Positions 3,565 through 63,972 of a DNA stretch of 64,000 bases are shown here, one piece after another. The notes under the pieces were generated by a model. That model was given only the letters and a program-made list of their open reading frames with translations. It had not been told where the DNA came from and searched no databases. How positions within the stretch are numbered: the stretch's first letter is position 1; every line of letters begins with the position of its first letter. The stretch is from positions 994,392 to 1,058,391 of the forward strand of contig NZ_HG326652.1 of assembly GCF_000308295.2 (NCBI RefSeq), in the 5' to 3' direction. The stretch comes from Afipia birgiae 34632. GTDB lineage: Bacteria; Pseudomonadota; Alphaproteobacteria; Rhizobiales; Xanthobacteraceae. Both the position numbers and the translations under genes were made by a program.

Positions 3565-3729
3565 TGGTGATCCGATTCTAATCATTCGCATCCCTTTGCA
3601 GCAGGCGGTCTTGCGAATGTTAGAATCAAAGGATCACTAGCAATTATAATTTTCGAGTGTCCTTCCGAATCCGCCGTTCGCTACGGAAGGCACCGCAAGA
3701 TAAGGCGAACGGCGGATTCGGGACACTCG
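3565..3729. repeat. Double-hairpin element, copy A
   Basis: Hairpin 1 runs from GTGATCC (3567) through GATTCTAATCATTCGCA and back as TGCGAATGTTAGAATC, an AAA bulge and GGATCAC. The centre is CAATTATAATTTT. Hairpin 2 runs from GAGTGTCC (3655), a short 5' bulge, CGAATCCGCCGTTCGC and back as GCGAACGGCGGATTCG then GGACACTC. The element fills the whole spacer between the RND adaptor and pump genes and ends one base before the pump ATG. Related copies lie at 8124, 20292, 31476 and 63809. Confidence 0.9.
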
Positions 3730-3730
3730 C

Positions 3731-6700
3731 ATGAATCTGTCGGAACTCTGTATCCGCAGACCGGTGATGACGACGCTGATGACGGCGTCGATCATTGCCT
3801 TTGGCGTGTTCGGTTTTCGGCTGCTGCCGGTCTCGGCGCTTCCCAAGGTTGATTTTCCGACCATCCAGGTCACGGCCACCTTGCCGGGTGCAAGCGCCGA
3901 CACGATGGCGGCTTCCGTTGCCGGCCCGATCGAGCGTCAGCTCTCCACGGTCGCCGGCATCTCGTCGATGTCGTCCAGTTCCTCGCAGGGAACAACTTCG
4001 ATCACCGTCCAGTTCGATCTCAATCGCAACATCGACGGTGCCGCACTCGACGTGCAGACCGCGCTGACGATCGCGCAGCGCCGCCTGCCGGTCGAGATGC
4101 TGATTCCGCCCAGCTTCCGCAAGGTGAACCCGGCCGATTTCCCCGTGCTGTTCGTATCGCTCAGTTCGGAGACGTTGCCGCTGTCGACCGTCAACGAATA
4201 CGGCGACATCACCATCGGCCAGACGCTGTCGCAGATCCCGGGCGTGGCGCAGGTGCTGATCTACGGCACGCAGAAATTCGCCATTCGCGTTCAGGCCGAT
4301 CCCGAGGCTGCGGCGGCTCGCGGGCTATCGCTGGAAGACATCCGCGCGGCGGTGTCGCGCGCCAACTCGTCGACGCCGGTCGGCACCCTGAACGGACCGA
4401 AGCAGGACATCGCCATTCAGGCGTCGGGGCAGCTCAACAAGGCGATCGATTATCGTCAGGTCGTGGTCGCGTGGCGCAACGGTTCGCCCGTCAAACTCGA
4501 TGAAGTCGCCAGAATCTACGACAGCGTCGAAAACGACAAGGTCGCCACCTGGTTCAACGGCACGCGCTCGATCGTGTTGGCGATCCAGAAGCAGCCCGAT
4601 GCGAACACCGTGGCGGTGGTCGATGCGGTGCGGGCCAAGCTGCCGTCGCTGCGGGCGCAGATCCCGCCCTCGATCACCATGGACGTCACGCTCGACCGCT
4701 CGGTGTCGGTGCGCGAATCCGTCGCCGACGTGGAGGAGACCCTGCTGATCGCGGTCGGTCTCGTGATCGTCGTGATCTTCCTGTTCCTGCGTTCGGCCTC
4801 GGCCACATTCATTCCTGCGCTTGCGGTTCCGATCTCGCTGCTCGGTACCTGCGCGGTGATGTATGCGCTGGATTACTCGATCAACAACATGACGCTGCTG
4901 GCGCTGACGCTGTCGGTAGGCTTCGTGGTCGACGACGCCATTGTCATGCTCGAAAATATCATGCGCCATATCGAGAACGGCATGAAACCGTACGAAGCGG
5001 CGCTGAAAGGCGCCCGCGAGATCGGTTTCACGATTCTGTCGATTACGTTCTCGCTGATCGCGGTGTTCATCCCGGTGCTGCTGATGGGCGGCATCGTCGG
5101 CCGCGTGTTTCGCGAATTTGCGGTCACCATTTCGGTCGCCATCATCGTGTCCGGCTTCGTGTCGTTGACGCTGACGCCCATGCTGTGCGCACGGGTGCTG
5201 AAGCCGCACGATCCGCATCACAAACCCAACTTCGTGTTGCGCTGGTTCGAGACGATGTTCGACTCGTGGCTGCTCGGCTACGAATGGACGCTCGACCGCG
5301 TTCTTAAATACAAGTCCATCATGCTGATGGTGACGCTGGCGACGCTTGGCGCAACCATCTGGTTGTACATGATCGTGCCGAAGGGTTTTTTCCCGCAGGA
5401 AGATACCGGCTTCCTGAGCGGCACGACGGAAGCGGCGACCGATACGTCGTTCGAAGCGATGGGCGCGCGGCAAAAAATTCTTGCCGATATTCTGCGAGCT
5501 GATCCTGCAGTGGAGTTCGTGAACAGCACGGTCGGGTCCGGTGGTCCCAATCCGACGGCGAACTACGGGCGTCTGTTCATTGGCCTGAAGCCGAAGAACG
5601 AGCGCGACCCCGCGCCGGTCGTGATGGCGCGGCTGCGGCAGAAGGCGCTGCAGGTGCCCGGCTTGCAGGCGTTCTTCCAGAGCATCCAGAACCTCAACAT
5701 CGGCGGGCGGCCGTCGAAGAGCCAGTATCAATACACGCTGCAAAGCGGTGATACGGACTCGCTCTATCGGCTTGCGCCGGAGATGCGCGAGAAGATCGCG
5801 AAGGTGCAAGGTCTGCAGGACGTCACCACGGACCTCTACATCAAGAACCCGCAGCTGACGGTCGAGATCGATCGCGAAAAGGCGGCGGTCTATGGCGTAA
5901 CCGCCGATCAGATACGCAATCAGCTCTTCAATGCTTACGGCGCTCGGCAGGTTGGCACGATCTACATGCCTTCGAATGACTACCAGATCATTCTTGAAGT
6001 GCAGCCGAAATTCCGCGTCGACCCGACAGACCTGTCCAAGCTGTACGTCAAGACGACGAACAACCAGACTATTCCGCTCGATGCCGTGGCCAGGATGGTG
6101 CCGACGGTCGGACCGCTGCAGATCAATCACCAGGGTCAGCAGCCGGCGGTGACGATTTCGTTCAATCTCGCGCCGGGCACGTCGCTCGGCTACGCCGTCG
6201 ACCAGATCACCAGGATCGAGCAGGATTCGAACCTGCCGGCGACCATCGCCACGGGTTTCTCCGGAACGGCGCAGGTGTTCCAGGATTCGCTGCGCGGGCA
6301 GGGCGTTCTCATTCTCGCCGCCGTGTTTGCCGCATTCGTCATCCTCGGCATTCTCTACGAGAGCTTCATCCATCCGATCACGATCATCTCGGGCCTGCCG
6401 TCCGCAGGTATCGGCGCGATCCTGACGCTGATGCTGTTCAAGATGGAGATGTCGGTGATCGCCATGATCGGCATCGTCATGCTGGTCGGCATCGTGAAGA
6501 AGAACGCCATCATGATGGTGGACTTCGCCATCGAGCGCCGCACCGTGGGACTCAGCGCCGAACACGCCATTCGTGAAGCGGCGCTGCTGCGTTTCCGCCC
6601 GATCATGATGACGACGTTTGCTGCGATTTTCGGCACGCTGCCGATCGCGCTGGGAGCGGGGGCAGGCGCCGAACTGCGGCAGCCGCTTGGTGTCGCGGTT

Positions 6701-6859
6701 GTCGGCGGTCTGCTGGTCTCGCAGTTGCTGACGCTGTTCATCACGCCGGTGATCTACATCTACCTCGATCGCATCGACCGCCGCCTGAAGCGTCGTCTCG
6801 ATCCGACCCTGGAGGAGACGCCGGACGTCCAGCCTCCGCGCGTTGCGGCGGCAGAGTAA
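3731..6859 (+). CDS. RND efflux pump, inner-membrane transporter (HAE-1/MdtB-like)
   Basis: At 1042 residues it has the usual RND length. It begins NLSELCIRRPVMTTLM, the standard first transmembrane start, and has two large periplasmic loops and twelve predicted membrane helices. The proton-relay residues are present: Asp401-Asp402 in FVVDDAIVMLEN (TM4) and Lys923-Lys924 in IVKKNAIMMVDFA (TM10). The N-terminal stretch (ALPKVDFPTIQVTATLPGAS) resembles MdtB/MdtC-type pumps. It works with the adaptor encoded just upstream to expel small molecules. The ATG follows directly on palindromic element A and no Shine-Dalgarno sequence is visible, so its translation may depend on the element. Confidence 0.95.
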   Translation: MNLSELCIRRPVMTTLMTASIIAFGVFGFRLLPVSALPKVDFPTIQVTATLPGASADTMAASVAGPIERQLSTVAGISSMSSSSSQGTTSITVQFDLNRNIDGAALDVQTALTIAQRRLPVEMLIPPSFRKVNPADFPVLFVSLSSETLPLSTVNEYGDITIGQTLSQIPGVAQVLIYGTQKFAIRVQADPEAAAARGLSLEDIRAAVSRANSSTPVGTLNGPKQDIAIQASGQLNKAIDYRQVVVAWRNGSPVKLDEVARIYDSVENDKVATWFNGTRSIVLAIQKQPDANTVAVVDAVRAKLPSLRAQIPPSITMDVTLDRSVSVRESVADVEETLLIAVGLVIVVIFLFLRSASATFIPALAVPISLLGTCAVMYALDYSINNMTLLALTLSVGFVVDDAIVMLENIMRHIENGMKPYEAALKGAREIGFTILSITFSLIAVFIPVLLMGGIVGRVFREFAVTISVAIIVSGFVSLTLTPMLCARVLKPHDPHHKPNFVLRWFETMFDSWLLGYEWTLDRVLKYKSIMLMVTLATLGATIWLYMIVPKGFFPQEDTGFLSGTTEAATDTSFEAMGARQKILADILRADPAVEFVNSTVGSGGPNPTANYGRLFIGLKPKNERDPAPVVMARLRQKALQVPGLQAFFQSIQNLNIGGRPSKSQYQYTLQSGDTDSLYRLAPEMREKIAKVQGLQDVTTDLYIKNPQLTVEIDREKAAVYGVTADQIRNQLFNAYGARQVGTIYMPSNDYQIILEVQPKFRVDPTDLSKLYVKTTNNQTIPLDAVARMVPTVGPLQINHQGQQPAVTISFNLAPGTSLGYAVDQITRIEQDSNLPATIATGFSGTAQVFQDSLRGQGVLILAAVFAAFVILGILYESFIHPITIISGLPSAGIGAILTLMLFKMEMSVIAMIGIVMLVGIVKKNAIMMVDFAIERRTVGLSAEHAIREAALLRFRPIMMTTFAAIFGTLPIALGAGAGAELRQPLGVAVVGGLLVSQLLTLFITPVIYIYLDRIDRRLKRRLDPTLEETPDVQPPRVAAAE

Positions 6860-6866
6860 GATCCCG

Positions 6867-7730
6867 ATGCGCATCAGGCCTGCGACGACATGGTGGTGCC
6901 TGGCGATCGCCGCCGTCGCATTGCTTGCTGCCGCGCCTGTTCGTGCAGCGGAAGAGCCGATCGAAATCTTCGACGCGCATCTGCACTACAACTGGGAGCC
7001 GACCCCGTACTACCAGCTCGACGAGGTGCTGGCGCTGTTCAAGACGCACCGCGTCACCGGCATTCTGGCAACCAGCCGCCCCAACACCGGGACGCATGCG
7101 CTGATGGACGCGAAGGCCGAGGGCTTATGGGTTGTTCCCTTCATTCGTCCATACCGCGTCCGTCCCGACATCCAGACCTGGTTCAACGATCCGACGATCT
7201 TCGATCTGGTGCAGGACGAGTTCAAGCGCGGCTACTATCGCGGCATCGGCGAGTTTCATCTCTCCGGGAAGGCCGCGGCCACCGAGTGGGTCAAGAAGGC
7301 CGTGGACTTCGCGGTCGCCAATGATCTCTACCTTCATGCCCACGCCGACGACGAGGCCGTGGAGATTTTGATGCGCCATAACGGGCGCGCGAAAATCATC
7401 TGGGCCCACACCGGATTCAGTCTCGCGCCGAGCCGTGTCGCATCGATGCTGGCCACCTATCCGCAACTGTGGGGTGAACTGTCCTATCGCGGTGGCATCA
7501 CGGGGGTTGGCGGAGAACTGACGCCGGAATGGCGCGCGATGTTCGAGAAGTATCCGGATCGCTTTCTGCTTGGATCGGATACCTGGATCAGCGAGCGCTG
7601 GGCGAGCTACGGCGCGATCATGGCCGGGTATCGCGGCTGGCTGAAGCAACTGCCGCCGGCGGTCGCCAAGCAGATCGCGCACGGCAATGCCAAGCGGCTG
7701 TTTGCCGCCAACGAAAACAGCCCTCGCTAA
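6867..7730 (+). CDS. Exported amidohydrolase-family (TIM-barrel) hydrolase
   Basis: The start at 6867 lies 7 bases after the RND stop and gives a signal peptide (MRIRPATTWW, hydrophobic run, APVRAAEEP). The mature domain is amidohydrolase_2-like: FDAHLHYNW carries the HxH metal pair (His38, His40), later LHAHADDEA and IIWAHTGFS supply further His ligands, and LLGSDTWIS the C-terminal Asp. Members hydrolyse or decarboxylate small cyclic substrates, usually in the cytosol, so an exported version is less usual. It may be cotranscribed with the RND pump. Substrate unknown. Confidence 0.82.
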   Translation: MRIRPATTWWCLAIAAVALLAAAPVRAAEEPIEIFDAHLHYNWEPTPYYQLDEVLALFKTHRVTGILATSRPNTGTHALMDAKAEGLWVVPFIRPYRVRPDIQTWFNDPTIFDLVQDEFKRGYYRGIGEFHLSGKAAATEWVKKAVDFAVANDLYLHAHADDEAVEILMRHNGRAKIIWAHTGFSLAPSRVASMLATYPQLWGELSYRGGITGVGGELTPEWRAMFEKYPDRFLLGSDTWISERWASYGAIMAGYRGWLKQLPPAVAKQIAHGNAKRLFAANENSPR

Positions 7731-7733
7731 GGG

Positions 7734-8084
7734 TCAGATCGAGAAGCTGGTGCCGCAGCCGCAGGACGCGGTGGCATTTGGATTGACCACGCGGAACGAT
7801 GCGCCGATCAGGTCATCGACAAAGTCGACTTCCGATCCGGCCAGGAACGGCACGGACGAGGGGTCCACCAGCACCACGGCGCTGTCGCGCTCGATCACCA
7901 GATCGTCGTCGGCCCTGGCGCGCTCCACATCGAATTTGTACTGGAAGCCGGAACAGCCGCCGCCTTCGACGCTGATACGCAGCATCGCACCTTCGCCTTC
8001 CGTCTTGAGGATGGCGCCGATTCGCTTCGCAGCCCGCTCCGAAATTGTGACATTGGCGGCTGGCGCGAGGTCAGTGGCAGTCAT
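7734..8084 (-). CDS. erpA: Iron-sulfur cluster insertion protein ErpA (A-type carrier)
   Basis: The 116-residue protein is an A-type carrier of the HesB/IscA/ErpA family, with Cys44 in GGGCSGFQY and Cys108/Cys110 in ASCGCGTSF as the cluster ligands. ErpA passes Fe-S clusters to apoproteins. Length and the GGGCSGFQYKF context favour ErpA over SufA or IscA; no suf or isc genes are adjacent. Its stop codon lies only 3 bases from that of the convergent amidohydrolase. Upstream is palindromic element B. Confidence 0.9.
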   Translation of the reverse strand: MTATDLAPAANVTISERAAKRIGAILKTEGEGAMLRISVEGGGCSGFQYKFDVERARADDDLVIERDSAVVLVDPSSVPFLAGSEVDFVDDLIGASFRVVNPNATASCGCGTSFSI

Positions 8085-8123
8085 GACAGGTCTCCGGACG
8101 GCCGGGGTGTTTGAATGTCCCCG

Positions 8124-8287
8124 CTAGTGTCCTGAATCCGAAGTTCGCCTTACTTTGCAGCGCGCTCCATAGCGAACTTCGGATTCAAAGGACACTAGCA
8201 AATTATAATTCCAGTGTGGTTTTGGTTCGCAAGTCCGCAAATGGACGTGCGGTGAGATAATGCGGACTTTGCGAACCACCACACTAG
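8124..8287. repeat. Double-hairpin element, copy B
   Basis: Hairpin 1: CTAGTGTCC, then TGAATCCGAAGTTCGC, a loop (CTTACTTTGCAGCGCGCTCC), GCGAACTTCGGATTC, an AAA bulge and GGACACTAG. The centre is CAAATTATAATT. Hairpin 2: AGTGTGG, a TTTT bulge, GGTTCGCAAGTCCGCA and its return TGCGGACTTTGCGAACC then ACCACACT. It lies in the divergent spacer between erpA and dgt. Confidence 0.9.
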
Positions 8288-8343
8288 GGCATAGTTAAGT
8301 GCGCTGAACGCCAGAATCAAACACCGAAAGTAGAATAAATCGT

Positions 8344-9552
8344 ATGTCGGTCGGAATGGCTGCCCCTCCTGTGGTCTATGGCTGCGACCCCGGTCAAAGC
8401 CGCGGGAGGCGGTTCAATGAAGCGCCCAGCCTGCGCCGCAGCGCTTTTCGCCGCGATTGTGACCGGGTTATTCATTCCAATGCATTCCGGCGCCTGAAGC
8501 ACAAAACCCAGGTCTTCGTGTTCCACGAAGGCGATCATTACCGGACCCGTCTGACCCATACGCTCGAGGTGGCGCAGATCGCCCGCGCGCTGGCCCGGCA
8601 ACTTGGGCTCGACGAAGATCTCACGGAGACGCTGGCGCTGGCCCATGACCTTGGCCATCCGCCGTTCGGCCATGCCGGAGAGCGCGCCCTCGACGAGTGC
8701 CTGAAGGCGCATGGCGGCTTCGATCACAATGCGCAAAGCCTGCGCGTGGTGACGCTGCTGGAGCGGCGCTATCCGGACTTCGATGGCCTCAATCTGACGT
8801 GGGAATCCCTCGAAGGCATCGTCAAGCACAACGGACCGTTGATCGACAGCAACGGCGAGCCTGTCGGCCGATATCGCGAGCATGGCGTACCGGTCGGCAT
8901 ATCGGAGTATGTCGCCCATCACGATCTCGAATTGTGGAGCTACGCCTCGCTGGAAGCGCAGGTTGCCGCCGTGGCCGACGACATCGCGTATGACGCCCAC
9001 GACATCGACGACGGGTTGCGGGCAGGGCTGTTCACGGTCGACGATCTCGGAGGGATTCCGCTGATCGCCGACATCAACGCCGTCATCATCGCGCGCTATC
9101 CTGTCCTCGACGAGACCCGGCGCGGCGCGGAACTGGTGCGCGAACTGATCTCCTACTTGATCGAAGATGTGTTTTCAGAAACCCGCAAGCGGCTCACGGC
9201 CATCCACCCCAGGAGCGTCATCGATGTGCGCAACCATAACGCCACGCTCGTCGGCTTCTCGGCCGAAGCCGAGAAAACGGAAGCGGCGATCAAGCGCTTT
9301 CTCAAGACGCGGATGTATCGCCACGAGCGGGTCATGAGCGTCATGCGCGACGCAGAGGCCGTGGTCCGCGATCTTTTCGCGCGCTATCGTGCCGAACCCG
9401 GCGACCTTCCTGCCGAATGGCTGCCGCATCATGGCGAGGAAGACGAGGCCGGCCGGGCCCGCCGGATCGGCGATTTCATTGCCGGAATGACCGACAGATA
9501 CGCCATTATCGAGCACCAGCGGCTTTTTGACTCGACCCCGGATTTACGTTAG
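8344..9552 (+). CDS. dgt: Deoxyguanosinetriphosphate triphosphohydrolase-like protein
   Basis: The 402 residues carry an HD domain: [19 protein letters not shown] supplies the first His and [17 protein letters not shown] the HD pair plus a further His. The N-terminal [20 protein letters not shown] is typical of Dgt-like dNTP triphosphohydrolases, which convert dNTP to nucleoside and triphosphate and so shape dNTP pools. The length fits the shorter alphaproteobacterial subgroup (about 400) rather than the E. coli type (about 505). It precedes argS by 49 bases and may be cotranscribed with it. Confidence 0.93.
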
Positions 9553-9601
9553 GCGGCGGCCTGAATATGCCGATTTCGTGCGCCCACCAGGACACTTTCC
9601 A

Positions 9602-11395
9602 ATGACTTCGCCCAGCCAGCCCCAGCATTTGTTCGCCGACGTGCTTTCGCGCGTGCATGCCGTATGCGCGGCGCTCGGCGGCGAGGGTGTATTGCCTGTG
9701 GGCATTGATCTGACGCGTGTGGTCGTGGAACCGCCGCGAGACGTCACCCACGGCGACATGGCCACCAACGCGGCGATGGTTCTGGCCAAGGACGCCAAGG
9801 CGAAGCCTCGCGAACTTGCGGACAGGATCGCGGACAAACTGCGCGCCGATCCGGTCGTTGAAAGTGTCGATGTCGCCGGACCGGGCTTCATCAATCTGAC
9901 GCTGAAGACGTCCGCATGGTTCGGCGCGCTGCGGAGCGTGCTGGAGCAGGGCAACGGTTATGGCCGCAGCGCGATCGGCGCGGCCGAGAAGGTCAATGTC
10001 GAATACGTCTCGGCCAATCCAACGGGGCCGATGCATGTCGGCCATTGCCGGGGCGCGGTGTTTGGTGACGCGCTTGCGAGCCTGCTCTCGTTTGCCGGTT
10101 ATGACGTCACGAAGGAATACTACATCAACGATGCCGGCGCGCAGGTCGATGTGCTCGCGCGTTCTGCCTTCCTGCGCTATCGCGAGGCGCTCGGCGAAGC
10201 CATCGGCGAAATTCCCGAGGGACTTTATCCCGGCGATTACCTTGTGCCGGTCGGCAAGGCCCTTGCGGCAGAACACGGCGACAAGCTGCTGAAGCAGTCC
10301 GAGGCAGAGTGGTTGCCGGTGGTGCGCGCCAAAGCCATCGCCATGATGATGGAGATGATCAAGGGCGATCTGGCGGCGCTCAACATCAAGCACGACGTCT
10401 TCTTCTCTGAACGCTCGCTCAACGAGAACGGCAACGACCGCGTCGGCGCCACCATCGCCGGACTGCGTGCCAAGGGCGATGTCTACGAAGGCCGCCTGCC
10501 GCCGCCGAAAGGAGCGCCGGTCGAGGATTACGAAGATCGTGAGCAAACGCTGTTCCGTGCCACCGCCTTCGGCGATGACGTCGATCGTCCGCTGAAAAAA
10601 TCGGACGGCTCGTACACCTACTTTGCGTCCGACATCGCCTATCACAAGACCAAGGTTGATCGCGGCTTCCTCAACATGGTCGACGTATGGGGCGCGGATC
10701 ACGGCGGCTACATCAAGCGCGTGCAGGCGGCCATCAAGGCCGTGACCGGAGGCAAGGCTGCGCTCGACGTGAAGATCGTTCAGCTCGTGAAGCTGCTGCG
10801 CAACGGCGAGCCGGTGAAGATGTCGAAGCGTTCCGGCGATTTCGTCACGCTGCGCGAGGTCGTGGACGAGGTCGGTTCAGACGCTGTGCGTTTCATGATG
10901 CTGTTCCGCAAGAACGATGCGGTGCTCGACTTCGATCTCGCCAAGGTGATCGAGCAGTCGAAGGACAACGCGGTGTTCTATGTGCAGTACGGGCACGCGC
11001 GCGGGCATTCGATCTTCAAGAACGCGCGCGAGACGGTTCCATCGTTGCCGGAAGAGGCGGCTGCGCGCGTTGCGTTTCTGCGTGATGCGAAAATCGAGCG
11101 CCTCAGCGATCCGGTCGAACTAAGCCTGATCCGGCAGATCGCACTGTACCCGCGAATTGTCGAAGCGGCGGCGCTCGCGCATGAGCCACACCGAATCGCG
11201 TTTTACCTGTATGATCTTGCGAGCGAATTCCATGCGCTTTGGACCAAGGGTCGCGATTTGCCCTATTTACGCTTCATTATCCAGAATGATGCAGAGATAA
11301 CAATCGCGCGGCTGGCCTTGGTTCAGGGCGTCGTCTCGGTTCTGGCTTCAGGCCTCGCCGTACTCGGCGTCCATGCTCCAGACGAGATGCGATAG
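9602..11395 (+). CDS. argS: Arginyl-tRNA synthetase
   Basis: With the start at 9602 the protein has 597 residues, normal for class I ArgRS. The HIGH-type signature is in [16 protein letters not shown] and the KMSKS-type loop is [11 protein letters not shown]. An N-terminal Add-1-like domain and a C-terminal DALR anticodon-binding domain (helical stretch with ending [11 protein letters not shown]) are in the expected order. The enzyme charges tRNA-Arg. The open frame extends 25 codons upstream into the dgt end, but that part does not look like ArgRS. It begins the argS-SPOR-nagZ-scp-tat gene run. Confidence 0.95.
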
Positions 11396-11499
11396 CTGGG
11401 GATTGACCGCCGCGGGGAACGGGTGGCGGCAGTGTGAATAGCGGCCGCTCCGTTTGAACGACGGGGGCGTCGCTTTCCCGAAGGGGATGCAACATCGCA

Positions 11500-18788: not shown

Positions 18789-20291
18789 ATGCACGATATT
18801 CGATGGATTCGCGACAACCCGGACGCTTTTGACGCAGCGCTGAAACGGCGCGGGCTGGAGCCGTTGTCGAAGATGTTGGTCGCGCTCGACGAGAAGCGCC
18901 GCGCGGCCATTCTGGCGTCGGAGCAGACACTGGCGCGGCGCAATGCGGCTTCCAAGGAAATCGGCGACGCCAAGAAGAACAAGGACAATGCGCGCGCCGA
19001 CGCGCTGATGGCCGAGGTCGGCGAACTCAAGACCAGACTTCCCGAGCTTGAGGCGACGGTGAAGCAGGTCGAAGAAGAGTTGAAGAAAGAACTCGCGCAG
19101 ATTCCAAACCTGCCGCTCGATGAAGTGCCAGACGGCGCCGACGAGCACGGCAATGTCGAGCATCATCACTATGGCGCGAAGCGCAATTACGCGTTCAAGC
19201 CGAAGGAGCATGTGGAACTCGGCGAAGCGCTGAAGTTCATGGACTTCGAGGCGGCGGCGAAAATGTCCGGCGCGCGTTTTGTCGTTCTGAAGAAAGGCCT
19301 CGCGCGCCTCGAGCGCGCGATCGGGCAGTTCATGCTCGATCTGCACACCAACGAGCACGGCTACACTGAAGTCAATCCGCCGCTCTTGGTGCGCGACGAT
19401 GCGATGTTTGGCACCGCACAGTTGCCGAAGTTTGAGGACGATCAGTTTTGGGTAAGGCTCTCAGCAGATCTTCATAGAAGCCGATCCAAAGAGATGATGT
19501 CGTATGTGAAGCGCATTGTTATCGCACAGAGCAAATTGGAAAAATTTGGGATAGATATAGAGTTTCACAAACCTGATGGCAGCGATTTGGATTTTGAGAT
19601 TTCCCTTTTGGTTTTGGAAATCGCAGAATGTCAGCAAGCAATTGCACATCTAAAATATCCTGACCGCTTGGGCCTTGTTCCAACCGCCGAAGTGCCACTG
19701 ACCAATCTCGTTCGCGAATCCATTCTCGACGAAAAAGAACTGCCGATGCGACTGACCGCGCTGACGCCGTGTTTCCGCGCGGAGGCGGGTGCTGCGGGAC
19801 GCGACACGCGCGGCATGATCCGTCAGCATCAGTTCACCAAGGTCGAACTGGTCTCGATCACGACTCCCGAAGAATCGAAGAACGAACACGAGCGCATGCT
19901 GTCCTGCGCCGAAGAAGTTCTGAAAAAGCTCGACCTGCATTACCGCGTCATGACGCTGTGCACCGGCGACATGGGCTTTGCGTCACAAAAGACTTACGAC
20001 ATCGAAGTCTGGATGCCGGGACAAATATCGAGCCAGGGTGAGGGCGGCATGTACCGCGAAATTTCCTCGTGCTCGGTGTGCGGCGACTTTCAGGCGCGGC
20101 GCATGGATGCGCGCTCGCGCGGGCCGGACGGCAAGCCGCGCTTCGTGCATACGCTGAACGGCTCGGGCACGGCGGTTGGCCGCGCACTGATCGCCGTGAT
20201 GGAAACCTATCAGCAGGACGACGGCTCGATTGCCGTGCCGGATGTGTTGCAGCCGTATATGGGCGGCCTCAAAGTGATCGCGAAGGAATAA
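18789..20291 (+). CDS. serS: Seryl-tRNA synthetase with an in-frame insertion
   Basis: The first 220 and last 205 residues are ordinary class II Ser[20 protein letters not shown], a coiled-coil arm (residues about 35-105), [27 protein letters not shown], then [39 protein letters not shown] (motif 2) and [14 protein letters not shown] (motif 3). Between DDQF and LVPTAEV, where bacterial enzymes usually have about ten residues, there are about 74 (residues 221-294), predicted as two amphipathic helices ([40 protein letters not shown]). My hand count gives about 41% GC in this stretch, well below the flanks. The total of 500 residues exceeds the usual 420-450. The reading frame is intact, so the enzyme is probably active. 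Confidence 0.93.
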
Positions 20292-20460
20292 CTGGTACCG
20301 CCTATTGGAAGTTCCTACAGCGCCAGCAGCGGGTCCGGTTAGGAACTTCCCATAGAAAGCGGTACCAGAATTATAAATAATGCCAGTACCCATAACTTTC
20401 CGAAGTTCGTGAAAGGCGGTGCTGAAATGGGACACGAACTTCGGAAAGTGGGTACTGGTA
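20292..20460. repeat. Double-hairpin element, copy C
   Basis: Hairpin 1: GGTACCGCCTATTGGAAGTT and its return AACTTCCCATAG, AAA, GCGGTACC. The centre is AGAATTATAAATAATG. Hairpin 2: AGTACCCATAACTTTCCGAA ... TTCGGAAAGTGGGTACT with loop GTGAAAGGCGGTGCTGAAAT. It begins one base after the serS stop and ends 3 bases before the surE ATG. An ATG in its second loop is in frame with surE. Confidence 0.9.
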
Positions 20461-31475: not shown

Positions 31476-31642
31476 CTAGTACCGCCTATTGGAAGTTCCT
31501 GCAGCGCAAGCTGCGAGTCCCATCCAGGAACTTCCAATAGATAGCGGTACTAGAATTATAGGTTGCTAGTACCCACGACTTTCCGAAGTTCGTGAAAGGT
31601 GGTGCTGAGATGGATCACGAACTTCGGAAAATGGGTACTGGT
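31476..31642. repeat. Double-hairpin element, copy D
   Basis: Hairpin 1: CTAGTACCGCCTATTGGAAG and its return CTTCCAATAGATAGCGGTACTAG (split here by position). The centre is AATTATAGGTTG. Hairpin 2: CTAGTACCCACGACTTTCCG ... CGGAAAATGGGTACTGG with loop GTGAAAGGTGGTGCTGAGAT. It starts 6 bases after the secF stop and runs into the next gene: all in-frame start codons of that gene lie inside the element. It is most similar to copy C. Confidence 0.9.
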
Positions 31643-55779: not shown

Positions 55780-55810
55780 ACAGGAGTATTTCGCACCCAG
55801 GATTCGCACG

Positions 55811-58528
55811 TTGGCTGACCAAGAAGATCCGCCGTCCGGCCCGTCCGAGACGGCCGATATCCGTCCCGTTTCGATCACGGATGAGATGAAGCGCTCGTAC
55901 CTCGATTACGCGATGAGCGTGATCGTGGCGCGTGCGTTGCCGGACGCGCGCGACGGTCTCAAGCCCGTTCACCGCCGTATCCTCTATGCGATGTACGAAA
56001 ATGGTTTCGAGTGGAACAAGCCGTATCGCAAATCGGCGCGCACCGTCGGTGACGTGATTGGTAAATACCATCCACACGGCGACCAGTCGGTCTACGACGC
56101 GATGGTGCGCATGGCGCAGGACTTCTCCATGCGCGTGCCACTGATCGACGGGCAGGGCAACTTCGGCTCGGTCGATGGCGATATGGCCGCTGCGATGCGT
56201 TACACCGAGTCGCGCCTTGAGAAGGTCGCTCACTCGCTGCTCGACGATATCGACAAGGACACCGTTGACTACCAGCCGAACTACGATAGTTCCGAGCGTG
56301 AGCCGAAAGTTCTGCCTGCAAAATTTCCGAACCTGCTGGTCAATGGCGCCGGCGGTATCGCGGTCGGTATGGCGACGAATATCCCGCCGCACAATCTCGG
56401 CGAAGTGATCGACGCGTGTATTGCGCTGATCAACGACCCCGCGCTTGGCATCGACGACCTTATCAATATCGTTCCCGGACCGGATTTCCCGACCGGCGGC
56501 ATTATCCTTGGCCGCCAGGGTATCCGTGCGGCCTACCATCTGGGCCGCGGCTCCATTGTGATGCGCGGCAAGGTCAACATCGAGACCATCCGCAAGGATC
56601 GCGAAGCGATCATTGTCTCGGAAATCCCGTATCAGGTGAACAAGGCGAGCATGGTCGAGCGCATCGCCGAGCTGGTGCGCGAAAAGAAGATCGAAGGTAT
56701 TTCGGATCTGCGCGACGAGTCCGACCGCGACGGTTACCGCGTGGTTGTTGAACTGAAGCGCGATGTGGTGCCGGAGGTGGTGCTGAATCAGCTCTATAAG
56801 TTTACGCCATTGCAGACCAATTTCGGCGCTAACATAGTGGCTCTCGATGGCGGCCGTCCGCGGGTGATGAACCTGAAGGATTTGCTGACTGTTTTTGTCG
56901 CGTTCCGCGAGAGTGTTGTCTCACGTCGCACCAAGTTCCTGCTCGGAAAGGCGCGAGACCGCGCCCATATCCTGGTGGGGCTCGCCATCGCCGTGGCCAA
57001 TATCGACGAGGTCATTCGCGTGATCCGCACCTCGCCGGACCCGAACACCGCGCGCGAAACCTTGATGTCGCGAGACTGGCCCGCAAAAGACATGGCGACG
57101 ATGATCACGCTGATTGACGATCCGCGTCATCGCGTCGCTGAAGATGGTACTGCGCGTCTGTCGCTCGAGCAGGCCAAGGCAATCCTCGACCTGCGTCTGC
57201 AGCGTCTGACTGCGCTCGGCCGCGAGGAAATCTCCGAAGAGCTGAACAAGCTTGCGAAGGAGATTGCCGACTATCTCGATATCCTGCGTTCGCGCGCCCG
57301 GATTCAGTCCATCATCAAGGACGAACTCACGGCCGTGAAGGACGAGTTCGCAACACCACGCCGCACCATGATCATCGATCAGGAAGGCGAGGTTGAAGAC
57401 GAAGACTTGATCCAGCGCGAGGATATGGTCGTTACCGTTTCGCATGCGGGCTACGTCAAGCGCGTGCCGTTGTCGACCTATCGCGCGCAGAAGCGTGGCG
57501 GCAAAGGCCGCTCGGGAATGCAGACGCGCGACGAGGATTTCGTCAGCCGGCTGTTCATCGCTTCCACGCATACGCCGGTACTGTTCTTCTCGTCCCGCGG
57601 TCAGGTTTACAAGGAGAAGGTCTGGCGTCTGCCGATGGCGGCTCCGAACTCGCGCGGCAAGGCGCTGATCAACATCCTGCCGCTGGAGCAGGGCGAGCGC
57701 ATCACCACCATCATGCCGTTGCCCGAGGATGAATCATCTTGGGGTAATCTCGATGTGATGTTCGCCACGACAGGTGGCAATGTCAGGCGCAACAAGCTGT
57801 CCGATTTCGTCGATGTTCGCCGATCCGGCATCATCGCTATGAAGCTCGATGAGGGCGAGGCCATCGTCGACGTGCAGATCGCGACCGAGAATGACGATGT
57901 GTTGCTGACCGCCGCGGGCGGACAGTGCATCCGCTTCCCGGTAACCGACGTACGCGTGTTCCAGGGTCGTACCTCGATGGGTGTGCGTGGTATCGCGTTG
58001 GGTGAAGGCGACAAGCTGATCTCTCTCACGATCCTGCGCCATATGGATGTCAACGCCGATGAGCGCGCCGCTTATTTGCGCCGCGCCAACGCGGTGCGTC
58101 GCGGTGGGGTCGAGGAAGAGGTCGGTTCTGATCAGGAAGAGGCCACGGGCGCGATCGAGCTTGGTGAGCAGCGCTATGTGGAAATGTCGGCCGCCGAACA
58201 ATTCGTGCTGACCATCAGCGAGAATGGCTACGGCAAGCGCAGTTCATCGTTCGAGTATCGCACCACAGGCCGCGGCGGAAAGGGCATCGTTGCGATGTCC
58301 GTCAACAACCGCAACGGCAAGCTGGTGGCATCGTTCCCGGTTGAGGACAGCGACCAGATCATGCTGGTGACTGACAACGGCCAGTTGATCCGCTGCCCGG
58401 TCGAGGACATCCGTGTCGCAGGGCGTTCGACTCAAGGCGTGATCGTGTTCGACACGGCTGAAGACGAGCATGTCGTCTCCGTTGAGCACATTACCGACGA
58501 TGAAGCGGAAAACGGCAACGGTGGTTAG
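55811..58528 (+). CDS. gyrA: DNA gyrase subunit A
   Basis: The 905-residue protein starts with TTG and has the GyrA N-terminal domain ([20 protein letters not shown]), the quinolone region [20 protein letters not shown] and the active-site Tyr131 (AAMRYTE). The C-terminal beta-pinwheel carries the GyrA box ([11 protein letters not shown], about residue 561), which distinguishes it from ParC. The residue matching E. coli Ser83 is Gln92; Asp96 matches Asp87. No parC is in the window. An acidic tail ends the protein. Confidence 0.96.
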
Positions 58529-58537
58529 AATCTGATC

Positions 58538-58558
58538 TCCCGGCCCGTCGGGCCGGGA
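58538..58558. terminator. Hairpin between gyrA and kup
   Basis: TCCCGGCCC-GTC-GGGCCGGGA, a 9-bp perfect GC-rich stem in the spacer between the two convergent stops. No T run. Confidence 0.7.
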
Positions 58559-58565
58559 CCGTGAC

Positions 58566-60473
58566 CTAGATCTCGATTTCAGTTCCGAACTCGACGACCT
58601 GCTTGGTCGGTACGCCGAAGAACGCGGCTGTGCGTTCCGCATTCCGTTGGAGGAATGCGAACACGGTCTCTCGCCACACCCACATGCCAGCGATTTTCTC
58701 GCTGGGAATGATCGTCTCGCGGCCGATGTAGTAGGTGATGTCGCTGAGATCGATGCCTGGAAGCTTGCCCTGTTCGCAAGCAAGTTGCAGTCCTTCCAGA
58801 ATAACCGGGTACTGCATGAAACCGAAGTGCAGGATTACGCGCGTTATTCCTTCGATGACCTCGATGACCTCGGCCCTGTCTTCGTCAGGGATGCGCGGCG
58901 CTTCCGCAATCAGGACGGTCACGAGAACGACGCGTTGATGCAGGACGTGATTGTGTTTGACGAACTGCGTCAACGCGAGAGGCACACCGTTCGGCGCCGA
59001 GGCGAGAAACACTGCGGTTCCCGGAAGCCGCGTATGGCATTTGCTTATCGCAGTTTCGATCAGGTCTTCTTCCGGCTGGCGTAGAGCACCTCGCGCCGCC
59101 TCGACGAGTTTCACGCCGCCGCGCCATGTCAGCATCAGGAACGCGATGACGGCTGCGATCACCAGCGGAAACCAGCCACCCTCGAACAACTTGGCCGAGT
59201 TTGCCGCGAAGAAAATACAATCGATTACGAAAAAGAACCCGTTGACCGCGATGACAACGATCGGTGGATAGCCCCACTGGATAGCGACCAGCGCTGCCAG
59301 CAGCGTCGTAATCGCCATCAGCAGCGATACCGCAACACCGTAGGCCCCGGCGAGCGCATCAGATGTGCCAAAACCGATGACGGCTCCAAGAGTTCCTGCG
59401 GCCAGCAGCCAGTTGATCAGCGGGACATAGATCTGGCCTTTCTCGTCACTCGCTGTGTGCTGGATATGCATGCGGGGCAGGAATCCCAGCTGAATGGCCT
59501 GCTGCGTGAGGGAGAAGACACCTGTGATGATCGCCTGAGATGCAATCACCGCCGCGAGCGTCGCGAAGGCAACGAGTGGATAGTGCACCCAATCAGGGGC
59601 GAGCTGGTAGAACGGGTTTTCAAGGGCTCCGGGATCGGTCAGGAGCAATCCAGCCTGGCCGAAATAGTTCAGGACAAGCGCTGGCAGCGCAATCGTAAAC
59701 CACGCGAGCTGGATCGGTGTACGGCCGAAATGCCCCATATCCGCATACATAGCTTCGCCACCAGTCACGGCCAGAAATGCCGCGCCCAGGATCGCAAACG
59801 AGACATGGAAATTCTGGCTGATGAGAAACGTCACTGCGTATGTCGGACTCAGGGCCGCAAGGACGTCAGGATTCTTCGCGATGCCGTGTATTCCCAACAG
59901 TGCAAGAACCACGAACCAGACCAGCATGAACGGTCCGAATATCCCCCCTATGAACCCGGTGCCTTTGCGTTGCATCAGGAAAAGCCCGATCAGGATGACG
60001 ACAGTGATAGGCACGACGGCGGGGGCCAGTGAAGGTGCGTCGACCTTTAATCCTTCTACGGCGCTGAGGACCGAGATCGCGGGTGTGATGGCTCCATCGC
60101 CATACAACAGCGCGGCGCCGATCAGTCCAACGATAAGCAGTTTCGCGCGCCACGTTCCCGGTTGCGCATTGCGGGCATGGAGAAGAGCCAGAAGCGCGAC
60201 GATTCCGCCTTCGCCGCGGTTGTCTGCCCGCATGATCAGCATGGCGTATTTGAACGAAATGATGAGGATCAGCGCCCAGAGGATCAGTGAGACCACGCCA
60301 AGAATGGCTTCGTTGGTGAGGACGCCACCGTGGCTTGCCGCCTTGGCGGCCTCCTTCAAGGCATAGAGCGGGCTCGTCCCGATATCGCCATAGACGACGC
60401 CGAGGGCTCCGATTGTTGCAGTGATCGGAAGTCCGGGGCTGCGGACTGAAGCTGCGCCATGCACGGCAGTCAC
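58566..60473 (-). CDS. kup: Potassium uptake protein Kup
   Basis: The 635-residue protein has about 12 helices and the Kup signature GALGVVYGDIGTSPLYALKE at the start, then FKYAMLIMRADNRGEGGIVA, ALLYGDGAITPAISVLSAVE and a soluble C-terminal domain. Kup imports K+ with H+. It begins with GTG after GGGG. A small hairpin (CATCCG-AAAA-CGGATG, 60498-60513) lies in its leader. Confidence 0.95.
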   Translation of the reverse strand: MTAVHGAASVRSPGLPITATIGALGVVYGDIGTSPLYALKEAAKAASHGGVLTNEAILGVVSLILWALILIISFKYAMLIMRADNRGEGGIVALLALLHARNAQPGTWRAKLLIVGLIGAALLYGDGAITPAISVLSAVEGLKVDAPSLAPAVVPITVVILIGLFLMQRKGTGFIGGIFGPFMLVWFVVLALLGIHGIAKNPDVLAALSPTYAVTFLISQNFHVSFAILGAAFLAVTGGEAMYADMGHFGRTPIQLAWFTIALPALVLNYFGQAGLLLTDPGALENPFYQLAPDWVHYPLVAFATLAAVIASQAIITGVFSLTQQAIQLGFLPRMHIQHTASDEKGQIYVPLINWLLAAGTLGAVIGFGTSDALAGAYGVAVSLLMAITTLLAALVAIQWGYPPIVVIAVNGFFFVIDCIFFAANSAKLFEGGWFPLVIAAVIAFLMLTWRGGVKLVEAARGALRQPEEDLIETAISKCHTRLPGTAVFLASAPNGVPLALTQFVKHNHVLHQRVVLVTVLIAEAPRIPDEDRAEVIEVIEGITRVILHFGFMQYPVILEGLQLACEQGKLPGIDLSDITYYIGRETIIPSEKIAGMWVWRETVFAFLQRNAERTAAFFGVPTKQVVEFGTEIEI

Positions 60474-60635
60474 TTGCTACCCCCGTCGCTTCACAAGCAT
60501 CCGAAAACGGATGCATGCTGTAGTCTGCTACCGGGAGCGGAAAATTGCCATGGCCGCTGAGCGGATTTTATTGGTCCCGCAACGCCCACTCGCCAATCCA
60601 GACGACGCAAATGGGTCTAAGTCTGGCGGGGTGGG

Positions 60636-60890
60636 TTAGTTGCGGTCCGTCGTCACGACCCGGACCGGCTGGACGCCGGCTTTCCAGTTGCTGCGCCGCA
60701 GACATGACGCGTCCATGGTCGGCCAATGCTGGGCCGCACAGGATACGCTGGCCGTCCGGATCGGCAGCCGGTCAGCCTTTGCAAGTGCTTGCGGCATGCT
60801 CGCCTCCACGCGAGGCGCAAAACTTGGTAAGATTGTCATGGCTGCTGCAACGAAAGCCGCAATCGTCACTACTGAGAGTGCCTTGATCAT
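60636..60890 (-). CDS. Small exported protein, unknown function
   Basis: The 84-residue product has a signal peptide (MIKALSVVTIAAFVAAAMTI) and a mature part with two cysteines (SCAAQHWPTMDASCLRRS), the plan of small secreted proteins common in Bradyrhizobium relatives. They probably form one disulfide in the periplasm. It faces coaD divergently. Confidence 0.72.
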   Translation of the reverse strand: MIKALSVVTIAAFVAAAMTILPSFAPRVEASMPQALAKADRLPIRTASVSCAAQHWPTMDASCLRRSNWKAGVQPVRVVTTDRN

Positions 60891-61054
60891 GGTCCGTCCT
60901 CTGCTGATTTCCAGCCTTATGGTCTGCTTGCAGGGATGACGCGCGGCGGCCGGTAAAGGTTCACGAGATCTTAAAATTTTTGCCCCGAAAAACAGCCGTC
61001 AGCTACGGAACCCGCCCTGCTTGCGGCGGTCGCCGGGCCGGGGTAGGAGGGGAT

Positions 61055-61552
61055 ATGTCCCGCATAGCGCTTTACCCCGGGTCGTTCGACCCTGTTACCA
61101 ATGGCCATTTGGATGTGGTTCGGCAGGCTTGCAGCCTGGTCGACCGGTTGATCGTTGCGATCGGCATCCATCCCGGCAAGGCCCCTCTGTTTTCCGCGGA
61201 AGAGCGGCTGGAAATGGTTCGCGAGGTGTTTGCGCCCATCGCCGCCAACGCCGGTTGCGAAATCGACTGTGTCACATTCAATGATCTGACCGTTACCGCG
61301 GCGCAGCGCGCAGGGGCGACGATCCTGATCCGTGGCCTGCGTGATGGCACTGATCTCGATTATGAAATGCAGATCGCCGGTATGAACCAGACGCTGGTGC
61401 CCGAGGTTCACACCGTTTTCATTCCCGCTTCGGCCACTGTTCGCCCGATCACCGCCACACTGGTGCGTCAGATCGCGGGGATGGGTGGTGACGTTTCGCA
61501 CTTCGTGCCGAAAGCCGTCGCCGCGCGCCTGACGAAGAGACTTGCTGGCTAA
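61055..61552 (+). CDS. coaD: Phosphopantetheine adenylyltransferase
   Basis: The 165-residue protein starts [20 protein letters not shown] with the TxGH nucleotidyl-transfer motif, then [18 protein letters not shown] and [20 protein letters not shown], all typical of CoaD. It makes dephospho-CoA in coenzyme A synthesis. The start at 61055 has GGAGGGG 5 bases upstream. Confidence 0.96.
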
Positions 61553-61579
61553 CTAGCTTTCTATCACCCCGGAGTTGTC

Positions 61580-62122
61580 ATGATCCGCATACTCGCCGTT
61601 CTCGCGGCTTTCGCTTTCGCAACACCCGCTTTGTCTCAGGCGCTTCCCGCCGGTCTCGACAAGGACAACGCCATCGTTATCGACACCACCCAGGGCCGGG
61701 TCATTTTCAAGCTCCGCACCGATCTGGCGCCCAAGCATGCCGAGCGGATCAAGCAACTCGCGCGCGACGGCTATTACAACAACGTGCCGTTTCATCGCGT
61801 GATCGAAGGCTTCATGGCGCAGACCGGCGACGGCCAGCGCTTCAACGGGACGGGCGGATCGAAGTATCCGAACCTTCCGGCGGAATTCTCCAGCGTGCCG
61901 TTCAAGCGCGGCATTGTCGGAATGGCGCGTTCGGGCGAACCGAATTCGGCTAATTCGCAGTTTTTCATCATGTTCGCGGACGGCAGCTTCCTGAACAACA
62001 AGTACACCGTCGTCGGTGAAGTGGTCTCGGGCATGAACGTCGTGGACAAGATCAAGCGCGGCGAGCCGGTTCAGGATCCGGACAAGATGGTGAGGGTGCA
62101 GGTCGCTTCCGACATCAAGTAA
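61580..62122 (+). CDS. Periplasmic peptidyl-prolyl isomerase (cyclophilin)
   Basis: The 180-residue protein has a signal peptide (MIRILAVLAAFAFATPALSQ) and a cyclophilin domain with FHRVIEGFMAQTGDGQRFNG and NSANSQFFIMFADGSFLNNK. It assists folding of exported proteins. It follows coaD by 27 bases and is followed by a cytosolic paralogue. Confidence 0.93.
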   Translation: MIRILAVLAAFAFATPALSQALPAGLDKDNAIVIDTTQGRVIFKLRTDLAPKHAERIKQLARDGYYNNVPFHRVIEGFMAQTGDGQRFNGTGGSKYPNLPAEFSSVPFKRGIVGMARSGEPNSANSQFFIMFADGSFLNNKYTVVGEVVSGMNVVDKIKRGEPVQDPDKMVRVQVASDIK

Positions 62123-62187
62123 CCCATCTCAGGCGATCCGCGGCCATACCGGCCATCGCGGGTTTCCCAACCTGCAAAGGAAACATC

Positions 62188-62652
62188 ATGGCAGACAACG
62201 AAAACACATTGATCCTGGAAACCACGCAGGGCCCGGTGACGATCGAGATGCGTCCCGATCTGGCGCCGGGGCACGTCGCGCGCATCAAGGAACTGGTACG
62301 CGAAGGATTTTACGATGGCATCGTTTTCCATCGCGTTATCGAAGGATTCATGGCGCAGACCGGCTGCCCGCAGGGCACCGGCACCGGCGGCTCCGGCAAG
62401 AAGCTGAAGGCCGAATTCAACAAGGAACCGCATGTGCGCGGCACCGCGTCGATGGCGCGTGCGGCGAACCCGGATTCAGGTGACAGCCAGTTCTTCATCT
62501 GTTTCGACGATGCCGCTTTCCTCAACGGCCAGTACACCGTATGGGGCAAGGTGACGTCCGGCATGGAGAACGTCGACAAGATCAAGCGCGGCGAACCCGT
62601 GCAGAATCCCGACAAGATCATCAAGGCGCATATGGCGGCTGACGCCGCCTGA
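62188..62652 (+). CDS. Cytosolic peptidyl-prolyl isomerase (cyclophilin)
   Basis: The 154-residue protein has the same cyclophilin domain without signal peptide: FHRVIEGFMAQTGCPQGTGT and DSGDSQFFICFDDAAFLNGQ. It starts with ATG after AAGGAAA. It and the preceding gene form a tandem exported/cytosolic pair, probably in one operon from coaD to queA. Confidence 0.94.
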   Translation: MADNENTLILETTQGPVTIEMRPDLAPGHVARIKELVREGFYDGIVFHRVIEGFMAQTGCPQGTGTGGSGKKLKAEFNKEPHVRGTASMARAANPDSGDSQFFICFDDAAFLNGQYTVWGKVTSGMENVDKIKRGEPVQNPDKIIKAHMAADAA

Positions 62653-62718
62653 TAGTCGCTGTAGTCTGGTCTTGCGAACGGATGGCCGGGCATGCCCGGC
62701 CATCGACATTTGAGCATC

Positions 62719-63795
62719 ATGCGTACTGACTTATTCGACTTCGAACTTCCGGAAGCCAACATCGCGTTGCGGCCTGTCAGCCCGCGCGACACGGCCCGCA
62801 TGCTGGCAGTCACACCCGGCAAGCCGTTGACGGATGCGGTCGTATCTGACCTGCCGGGGTTCCTTCAGCCAGGCGATCAACTGGTGGTCAACGACACCAA
62901 GGTCATTCCGGCGCAATTGATCGGTCGCCGCATCGGCCGGGAGACTGAACCGAAGATCGAAGCCACCCTTATCAAGCGCATCGACGGATCGCGCTGGCAG
63001 GCATTGGTGAAGCCGGCGAAGAAGCTCATCCAGGGTGACGCGATCCGCTTCGGCAACGAAGGCCGCGTCTGTCTGCTGGGAAACCTTGACGCGCAGGTTG
63101 AGCACAAGGGCGAGAACGGCGAGGTGACGCTGTCGTTCTCGTTTCACGGGCCGGTGCTCGATCAAGCCATTGCCGATGTGGGCGCGCCGCCGTTGCCGCC
63201 CTATATCGCATCACGGCGGACGCCGGACGAACGCGACACGGCAGACTATCAGACCATGTTTGCGGTCAGCGAAGGCGCGGTCGCTGCGCCCACGGCGGGG
63301 CTGCATTTTACGCCGGCGCTTGAGGCTGCATTGCGCAACCGTGGCATCGGTCTGCACCGCGTGACGCTGCATGTCGGGGCAGGGACATTTCTCCCTGTGA
63401 AAGCGGATGACACCGCCGGTCATAAAATGCACGCTGAATGGGGCACGGTGTCCGGGGAGACCGCTTCTGCGCTCAACGATGCCCGGGCCAAGGGTGGTCG
63501 GGTCGTGGCTGTCGGGACGACGTCGTTGCGGCTTCTCGAAAGCGCTGCGGCGGATGACGGCACGATCCAGCCGTTTACCGGCGAGACAGCAATTTTCATC
63601 ACGCCGGGCTATTGCTTCAAGGCAGTGGATGTTCTGATGACGAACTTCCATCTGCCGCGTTCGACCCTGTTCATGCTGGTTTCAGCCTTTAGCGGGTTGG
63701 AGACCATGCAGCAGGCCTATGCCCACGCCATCTCGAACGGCTATCGCTTTTACTCCTATGGCGACGCATGCCTGTTGTTTCGTCAGCCGACCTGA
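62719..63795 (+). CDS. queA: S-adenosylmethionine:tRNA ribosyltransferase-isomerase
   Basis: The 358-residue protein begins [20 protein letters not shown] and contains [20 protein letters not shown] ([20 protein letters not shown]), [15 protein letters not shown] and [19 protein letters not shown], all QueA marks. The enzyme builds epoxyqueuosine on tRNA. The start at 62719 is preferred; nine codons upstream are open. Its usual partner tgt would be expected just beyond the window. Confidence 0.95.
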
Positions 63796-63808
63796 CCCAT
63801 AACGTCGG

Positions 63809-63972
63809 CAGTGTCCCGTATCCGACGTTCGTTTCACTCGGCAACACCTTCCGTACGAACGTCGGATACGAAAGGACACTAGCTATTTATTGTTCTCGTG
63901 ATCCTTTGGTTCTGACATTCGTAAATGGTGTCTGCTGAGATGGAATACGAATGTCAGAACCGGATCACGAGA
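63809..63972. repeat. Double-hairpin element, copy E
   Basis: Hairpin 1: CAGTGTCC, CGTATCCGACGTTCG and its return CGAACGTCGGATACG, AAA, GGACACT. The centre is AGCTATTTATTGTTCT. Hairpin 2: GTGATCC, TTT, GGTTCTGACATTCGT and its return ACGAATGTCAGAACC, GGATCAC with loop AAATGGTGTCTGCTGAGATG. The two hairpin classes are those of copy A in swapped order. It follows queA by 13 bases. Confidence 0.9.

Follow-up and report, generated by a model that had tools for sequence, protein, structure and literature searches.

What are the paired hairpins that recur along a 64,000-nucleotide stretch of the Afipia birgiae 34632 genome (contig NZ_HG326652.1, positions 994,392 to 1,058,391; hereafter the window), and how did they come to be there? 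Five copies, A (3564..3729), B (8124..8287), C (20292..20458), D (31476..31641) and E (63808..63971), had been picked out from the letters alone, and folding confirms their places and their plan: each forms a long hairpin, an AT-rich centre and a second long hairpin, with stems of about 25-30 bp and asymmetric bulges of 2-3 nt, which in hairpin 1 lie on the 3' side and in hairpin 2 on the 5' side, as had been claimed. These spans count the terminal 4-mers in, and a whole copy is assigned to no strand. We propose that the copies are double-hairpin miniature inverted-repeat transposable elements (MITEs), probably moved by a CTAG-preferring transposase of the IS630 type.

The plan can be followed in copy B, both outer ends of which are CTAG. 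Hairpin 1 runs from CTAG to CTAG (8124..8198, plus strand), and has the foot TGTCC, the upper stem TGAATCCGAAGTTCGC and the bulge on its 3' side. Hairpin 2 (8211..8287, minus strand) faces it, with the foot TGTGG and the upper stem TGGTTCGCAAGTCCGC. The inner 4-mers are separated by the spacer CAAATTATAATT (8199..8210, no strand), which was read from the sequence.

Copies, stem classes, filled and empty sites

The five copies belong to a large family. A blastn search of the 5.33-Mb genome with copy A, in which 40 of 55 candidates were scored, gives at least 40 matches, and a covariance model made from 12 copies gives at least 146 matches on both genome strands, with the best E value of 7e-37. 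These represent at least 74 distinct places, approximately, nearly all of them 155-171 bp long and of two-hairpin form; the model search scored 150 of 1166 first-pass candidates, so that the copy count is a lower bound. We analysed 71 of the roughly 74 copies. The other three, partial matches at C1:2579530, C1:1402318 and C3:98210, were viewed with 150 nt on each side and set apart as apparent deletion derivatives; for the same reason they were dropped as possible autonomous partners.

A clear stem is found in 139 of the 142 hairpin halves, and 2133 of 2224 cells of the 16-bp upper stems are Watson-Crick pairs. The stem classes occur mostly as fixed pairs, and four types were labelled by eye: type I combines CGnATCCGACGTTCGC with GGTTCTGACATTCGT, type II is the pair of stems given above for copy B, type III combines TGGATTTGACATTCGC with CGATTCTAACATTCGC, and in type IV CTATTGGAAGTTCCT goes with a GTACCC hairpin. 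Copies A and E, both type I, do share their two stems, with the order reversed. An element of this plan is read as hairpin-centre-hairpin from either strand, so that the reversal is simply one of insertion orientation. The view that loops are conserved while stems vary is not borne out: by our reading, only about 2 of the 32 invariant columns in the 12-copy alignment fall in loops, the rest in the stems and the centre.

In protein comparisons the host is Afipia-like, with 93-94% identity to Afipia contigs, and every one of the 29 genus genomes has matches to the covariance model. Filters were stricter in searches that spanned more than 40 genomes, and the wider counts are therefore lower bounds: at least 139 of 248 genomes and 34 of 47 genera in the family, at least 65 of 347 genomes and 32 of 135 genera in a draw from the order (family members included), and at least 16 of 398 genomes in a draw from the phylum, all of them members of the class (14 inside the order, 2 outside it). 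Copies thus go far beyond five, in this genome and across the order, and the sequence-only reading, which a scarcity of copies or a lack of compensation between the arms (see below) would have undermined, stands in both respects. The family has no match among PLSDB plasmids in a distant blastn search with copy A. No Rfam family matches the window at its gathering score, and Rfam searches of four loci return three sub-threshold microRNA matches and nothing else. We found no description of such elements in the open-licence literature, most subscription papers lying outside the scope of that search.

Presence and absence at orthologous sites point to mobility. Copy A (type I; terminal 4-mers CTGG/CTCG) separates the stop of one gene (2423-3562; HlyD-like by Pfam) from the ATG of the next (3731; AcrB-like by Pfam). 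We located the HlyD/AcrB locus in 20 of the 29 genus genomes; it is filled in six (the window's genome, G005, G008, G017, G023 and G024) and lacks the element in 13, of which 12 have a gap of 3-7 nt and one (G009) a gap of 52 nt. At locus L193 of genome G011 the gap holds CCTAGTGATCCG alone where the relatives have copy A, likely the scar of an imprecise loss. In the window, G005 and G024, the element splits the stop of one gene from the start of the next, and in G005 and G024 a TAG at the element's edge seems to be used as the stop codon.

The other sites behave similarly. The site of copy C (type IV), which lies between serS (stop at 20291) and a surE-like gene, is empty in L100, L101, L102, L104 and L105, holds another palindromic sequence in L103, L108, L162 and G025, and longer inserts in L107 and L109. 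At the site of copy D (type IV), which starts 6 nt past the stop of secF and has a squalene/phytoene synthase gene as its other neighbour (both by Pfam), there is no element in L100, L102, L107, L109 and L162 and a damaged remnant in L101 and G025, interrupted in both by another repeat. An element is found between secD and secF in L101, and none there in the window, L100 or L162. Short gene gaps such as serS/surE and the 3' end of secF carry different palindromic repeats in different species, and may be insertion hot spots. In G025 the site of copy B, whose right neighbour encodes an HD-domain protein (Pfam), has the 4 nt CACA instead of the element, and that of copy E (type I), located past a queA-like gene with its stop at 63795, has CGTT.

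By eye, 6 of 9 pairs of filled and empty sites follow one rule, in which the empty site is 4 nt long and the filled site is a 4-mer, the element and a 4-mer; the six clean empty sites read CTGG, ATGT, CGTT, CACA, CTAC and CATG. The junctions of the other three pairs (A, C, and secD/secF of L101) are too diverged to count. Hairpins may also be exchanged singly: the copy at C1:1226946 and its orthologue in G025 have a similar, type-IV-like first hairpin and different second hairpins. Together with the nested insertions into CTAG described below, the presence and absence at orthologous sites and this difference in the second hairpin bear out the earlier suggestion of modular mobility.

CTAG targets and candidate movers

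The role of CTAG is seen among the young copies of G070, a complete 5.9-Mb genome from another genus of the same family, of which 800 kb (L289-L328) were analysed, the other 5.1 Mb lying outside the analysis. G070 and G028 are both rich in copies; 150 candidates were scored in each, and their counts are minimal. CTAG is found at both outer ends of the units in 14 of the 15 G070 loci shown (L271 has CCAG on one end), and adjoining units have one CTAG in common. The 800 kb hold 161 CTAG-bounded hairpins and 442 CTAGs, of which 297 border such a hairpin. The spacer is 13 nt in 75 of 82 cases, which puts the inner CTAGs roughly two turns of the helix apart. Two kinds of unit, X and Y, can be told apart: the hairpin-spacer-hairpin triplets are Xa-Xb or Ya-Yb in 49 of 60 cases and mixed in 11, and the complete X and Y units run H+, spacer, H-. 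A complete Y unit is nested in an X unit at the inner CTAG in 4 of 76 arrays, and locus L262, outside the 800 kb, is a fifth case. Such nesting at an inner CTAG is to be expected if each insertion adds one CTAG. There are also lone hairpins with CTAG on each side, so that movement or loss of single hairpins is possible. The tetramer is the rarest of all in 400 kb of G025 and ranks 15 in G070; a scarce word is here linked to a mobile element that is at once its user and its source.

The same 800 kb contain a candidate for the moving enzyme. Two identical copies of a 1184-bp insertion sequence (IS), both located at hairpin arrays, have CTAG on each side and encode a transposase of 360 amino acids that belongs to the IS630 family (NF033545, E 1.7e-75; Pfam DDE_3). 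There is a likeness between the two ends of this IS, TGTCCTGACTCTCAATTGCC and TGTTCCGTCTCGCAAATCAG, and the X arms, TGTCCTGTCTCCGAATTACC and TGTGGCGTCTCGCAATTGCC. When the ends are compared with 197 hairpin arms of the window's genome (G000) and G070, 0 and 12 of 1200 random 24-mers that start with the same two bases score as well, in a test that is uncorrected for the number of comparisons made and does not include the arms of the elements in G394, G060, G120 and G146. G070 thus holds, within one genome, an IS630-family element whose terminal repeats are like the hairpin arms. Relatives of this IS, with 38-48% identity for the closer ones, were found in 10 of 38 genomes searched, and they sit at CTAG at all 9 loci in G394 (9 of 11 matches examined) and all 8 in G052 (8 of 16). 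Some likeness of ends to arms is also seen for G060 (40 and 3 of 1200 random sequences as good) and for one end in G027 (G027_e1, 6).

These observations suggest the following scheme. Each copy would be a non-autonomous MITE made of two facing palindromes and an AT-rich spacer of 12-13 nt; each palindrome would begin and end with an arm resembling a terminal repeat, giving four such ends in a unit. An IS630 (Tc1/mariner) transposase with a preference for TA within CTAG would recognize the outer arms and excise the unit, which would then insert into another CTAG and leave CTAG on either side; in G070 the enzyme of the 1184-bp IS would do this, and duplication of TA or CTAG would accompany it. 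New copies would land in older ones and build up arrays because the elements themselves carry CTAG, and hairpins would be exchangeable at common CTAGs. The stem classes would mirror the terminal repeats of different IS630 relatives.

Four nucleotides at an empty site may also be what another DDE transposase leaves, one that makes a true 4-bp duplication of CTAG type, such as an IS5-like enzyme, with IS630 merely using the same target. Such duplications are known: MITEPsy1, listed as 'IS5?', duplicates CTAG or YTAA according to the part of PMC3189936 consulted. Two other IS of G070 also lie at or beside CTAG, a 1057-bp one (IS630-like by eye; positions 277816, 343171, 356648, 585066, 684253 and 770846) and an 855-bp one (IS5-like by eye; 99733-100587 and 235169-236023), though their ends are unlike the arms. 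For the former 1123 and 1061 of 1200 random sequences score as well, and for the latter, which was rejected as a partner, 119-790. Among the four IS inspected, which come from 52 repeat pairs longer than 400 bp in the 800 kb, only the 1184-bp IS630 has hairpin-like ends, and we regard such a different DDE enzyme as unlikely. The arrays also serve as landing sites for other elements: the 1057-bp IS lies in the CTAG of a hairpin array in 4 of its 6 copies, and the 855-bp IS, along with an IS of about 1285 bp (IS3-like by eye; 122429-123713 and 233836-235117), is at or beside CTAG, 3 of these 4 copies lying in or at hairpin units.

The sequence-only reading had likened the elements to bacterial interspersed mosaic elements (BIMEs), which suggests units moved in single-stranded form by a REP-associated tyrosine transposase (RAYT; Y1, HUH), REP standing for repetitive extragenic palindromic sequence, with the hairpins recognized and CTAG serving as the cleavage tetranucleotide. 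Part of the likeness is real, as the hairpins are indeed paired, opposed and asymmetrically bulged; CTAG on both sides fits a peel-and-paste route as well, and the window's genome does have a RAYT (NF047646). This gene (locus L009, 1357-1890, minus strand; G000:C3:244949-245284) is the genome's only Y1_Tnp match. It is flanked by a REP of its own, GCCCGGAT...CATCCGGGC, by eye unrelated to the two-hairpin elements. Nor does Y1_Tnp track them: it is matched in 3 of 29 genus genomes (26 have no match) and in 5 of 16 copy-rich genomes, and the copy-rich G028 is without it, past loss being conceivable. A RAYT was therefore rejected as the mover, on a reading of flanks that covered the Y1 gene of the window's genome and left aside those of G009, G025 and the copy-rich genomes, and we give this route very little credence.

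The IS630 reading itself has several observations to contend with. Most empty sites are not CTAG, and among the six clean ones TA is in place only in CTAC. The outer 4-mers of one copy in the window's genome agree at chance level (18 of 69, shuffle mean 15.8), and strict 4-bp target duplication in that genome was rejected on this ground. The outer and inner 4-mers of the same hairpin, located by their likeness to CTAGTG, are alike in 85 of 139 hairpins, against at most 57 in the shuffles, and in 39 of these both differ from CTAG; this is not expected from plain target duplication. An outer 4-mer that came from the target would point to one arm being corrected from the other once the unit has inserted; alternatively, the unit may carry its 4-mer along. 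Furthermore, a search for the G070 transposase found nothing in the window's genome, and nothing in 19 of the 23 genus genomes that it covered, and G052 has 16 transposase matches yet no element by the covariance model under the stricter filters. The likeness of IS ends to arms is weak for one end of G052b (G052b_e1, 13 of 1200 random sequences as good), for G052a (26 and 18) and for G146 (40 and 84), and absent for G394 (1073 and 395), G120 (463), and G027_e2 and G052b_e2 (150 each). With the transposase match absent from the window's genome, the copies there may be relics.

Matched arms and host function

The two arms of a stem change together, as had been claimed. In the seven stem classes, which cover 133 of 139 stems, 95.4-98.1% of cells are Watson-Crick pairs, and pairing exceeds that of all 300 shuffles in six classes, the seventh having only three sequences. 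Of 2090 cells in these classes, 91 differ in both arms yet still form a Watson-Crick pair, and another 73 do not form one; these are counts of cells, not of independent events, and the stem finder, which picks the best-pairing 16-mers, favours pairing. Orthologous copies present a different picture. The site of copy A, compared over six genomes, has 174 cells, of which 3 show a change in both arms and 13 in one arm only (Fisher p 0.007, with cells not independent). The proposed selection on structure is therefore only partly upheld: the co-changes among dispersed copies are real, and the orthologous site decays mostly one-sidedly. The A site, where most changes fall on a single arm, gives no indication that the host maintains the element; on the evidence of this one site, matched change seems a property of copies that are moving or used to move rather than of those at rest.

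Under the IS630 reading, matching would arise in moving copies, where both arms need to be recognized and the palindrome allows one arm to be corrected from the other; resident copies would decay afterwards.

Compensated changes in stems are usually read in another way, as pairing selected in a structured RNA or DNA that serves the host, for example a terminator, an mRNA 3' end, or a nucleoid or CcrM site. The gene context, obtained with our own scoring of open reading frames (ORFs), which were allowed to run over the element, goes some way with this: no called gene covers any of the 71 copies, and of the 50 stop codons facing a copy 29 are no more than 20 nt away from it. However, the neighbouring genes are tandem for 40 copies, divergent for 26 and convergent for 5, compared to 187, 50 and 67 gaps of these kinds in the same loci, so that copies are rarer, not commoner, where genes converge. 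To this are added the one-sided decay at the orthologous A site (13 vs 3), the many relatives that lack the element at a given site, and the finding that G-T (23) is no commoner than A-C (38) in the 16-bp stems, the strand not being set by transcription. The family does not look like a dedicated terminator, and a host-serving role of any such kind seems to us highly improbable; effects on operons such as HlyD-AcrB are possible. Insertion into TAG stops was considered as the cause of the nearness to stop codons: ends with an exact CTAG and at least 100 open codons running into that TAG number 13 of 60, as opposed to 15 of 120 in the other two frames, an excess too weak to build on, and this explanation was set aside.

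The account can be stated in a fuller form, which we hold only tentatively, with rather more doubt than confidence. The elements would be composite MITEs found across the order, each a fixed pair of palindromes 13 nt apart, moved by CTAG-preferring IS630 enzymes; subfamilies would arise as hairpins reassort at CTAG and arms track the resident IS630, and co-variation would come from palindrome-templated correction and recognition of two ends, not from an RNA function in the host. Co-variation in stems is often taken as the mark of functional RNA. Its occurrence here in a mobile DNA repeat, where it is largely missing from vertical descent at the single orthologous site compared, calls for caution in covariation screens.

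Elsewhere in the window, two 171-nt stretches (61658-61828 and 62194-62364), 536 nt apart and 72% alike, lie in neighbouring ORFs of 180 and 154 amino acids, which are probably tandem paralogues.

Comparison with known systems

The family is abundant, with 161 hairpins in 800 kb of a single genome, and is found between genes, also inside operons. RIME of Rhizobium/Sinorhizobium, reportedly described by Osteras in 1995, is said to consist of two large palindromes and to measure about 130 bp; as far as that description goes, it resembles our elements in being an intergenic rhizobial repeat with a two-palindrome plan. We identified no RIME copy in 300 kb of S. meliloti pSymB, where there is no match to the covariance model (best E 0.42) and no CTAG-bounded hairpin.

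The remaining comparisons draw on parts of the papers cited. REPs and BIMEs are likewise palindromic and intergenic and occur as dimers; REPs, however, are 20-40 bp long and carry GTAG/CGTC tags (PMC3733652). The consensus sequences of Br-REP1 and Br-REP2 of Bradyrhizobium (PMC5082802) are by eye unlike the arms described here. A larger repeat that the same paper mentions for Afipia might be the same element as ours.

The IS630 family offers further parallels. That IS630 prefers TA within CTAG is stated in the title of Tenzen and Ohtsubo 1991 (cited in PMC2170065). IS630 and ISY100 (PMC2170065) have the transposase family and the TA duplication in common with our scheme, and IS630 the CTAG preference as well; unlike the elements in the window, they are autonomous, whereas the latter carry no gene. 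RUP of Streptococcus pneumoniae, which has been proposed to be mobilized by IS630-Spn1 (PMC2229807), is similarly non-autonomous, has terminal inverted repeats like those of IS630-family IS and targets containing TA. RUP is a single 107-bp unit, in contrast to the two facing palindromes, near-fixed spacer, CTAG arrays and many stem classes seen here.

A repeat of similar layout is CIR of Caulobacter and Brucella (Chen and Shapiro 2003, as described in Delihas 2007, PMC2229807), which is intergenic, measures about 110 bp, has two long inverted-repeat arms and a linker, and whose mobility is called unexplained there. CIR and the present elements are both alphaproteobacterial and intergenic, and both have two palindromic arms joined by a linker and TA at the termini. 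They are set apart, as CIR is described, by length (about 110 bp against about 165, full matches here being 155-171 bp) and by the place of GANTC, which CIR has in the terminal loop and which is found here in 5 of 139 loops and 49 of 139 5' stem arms. An IS630-type enzyme may be a candidate partner for such two-arm alphaproteobacterial repeats as well. The elements of the window are best filed as a variant of the IS630-type MITE with double palindromes, and probably work in the way IS630 MITEs do.

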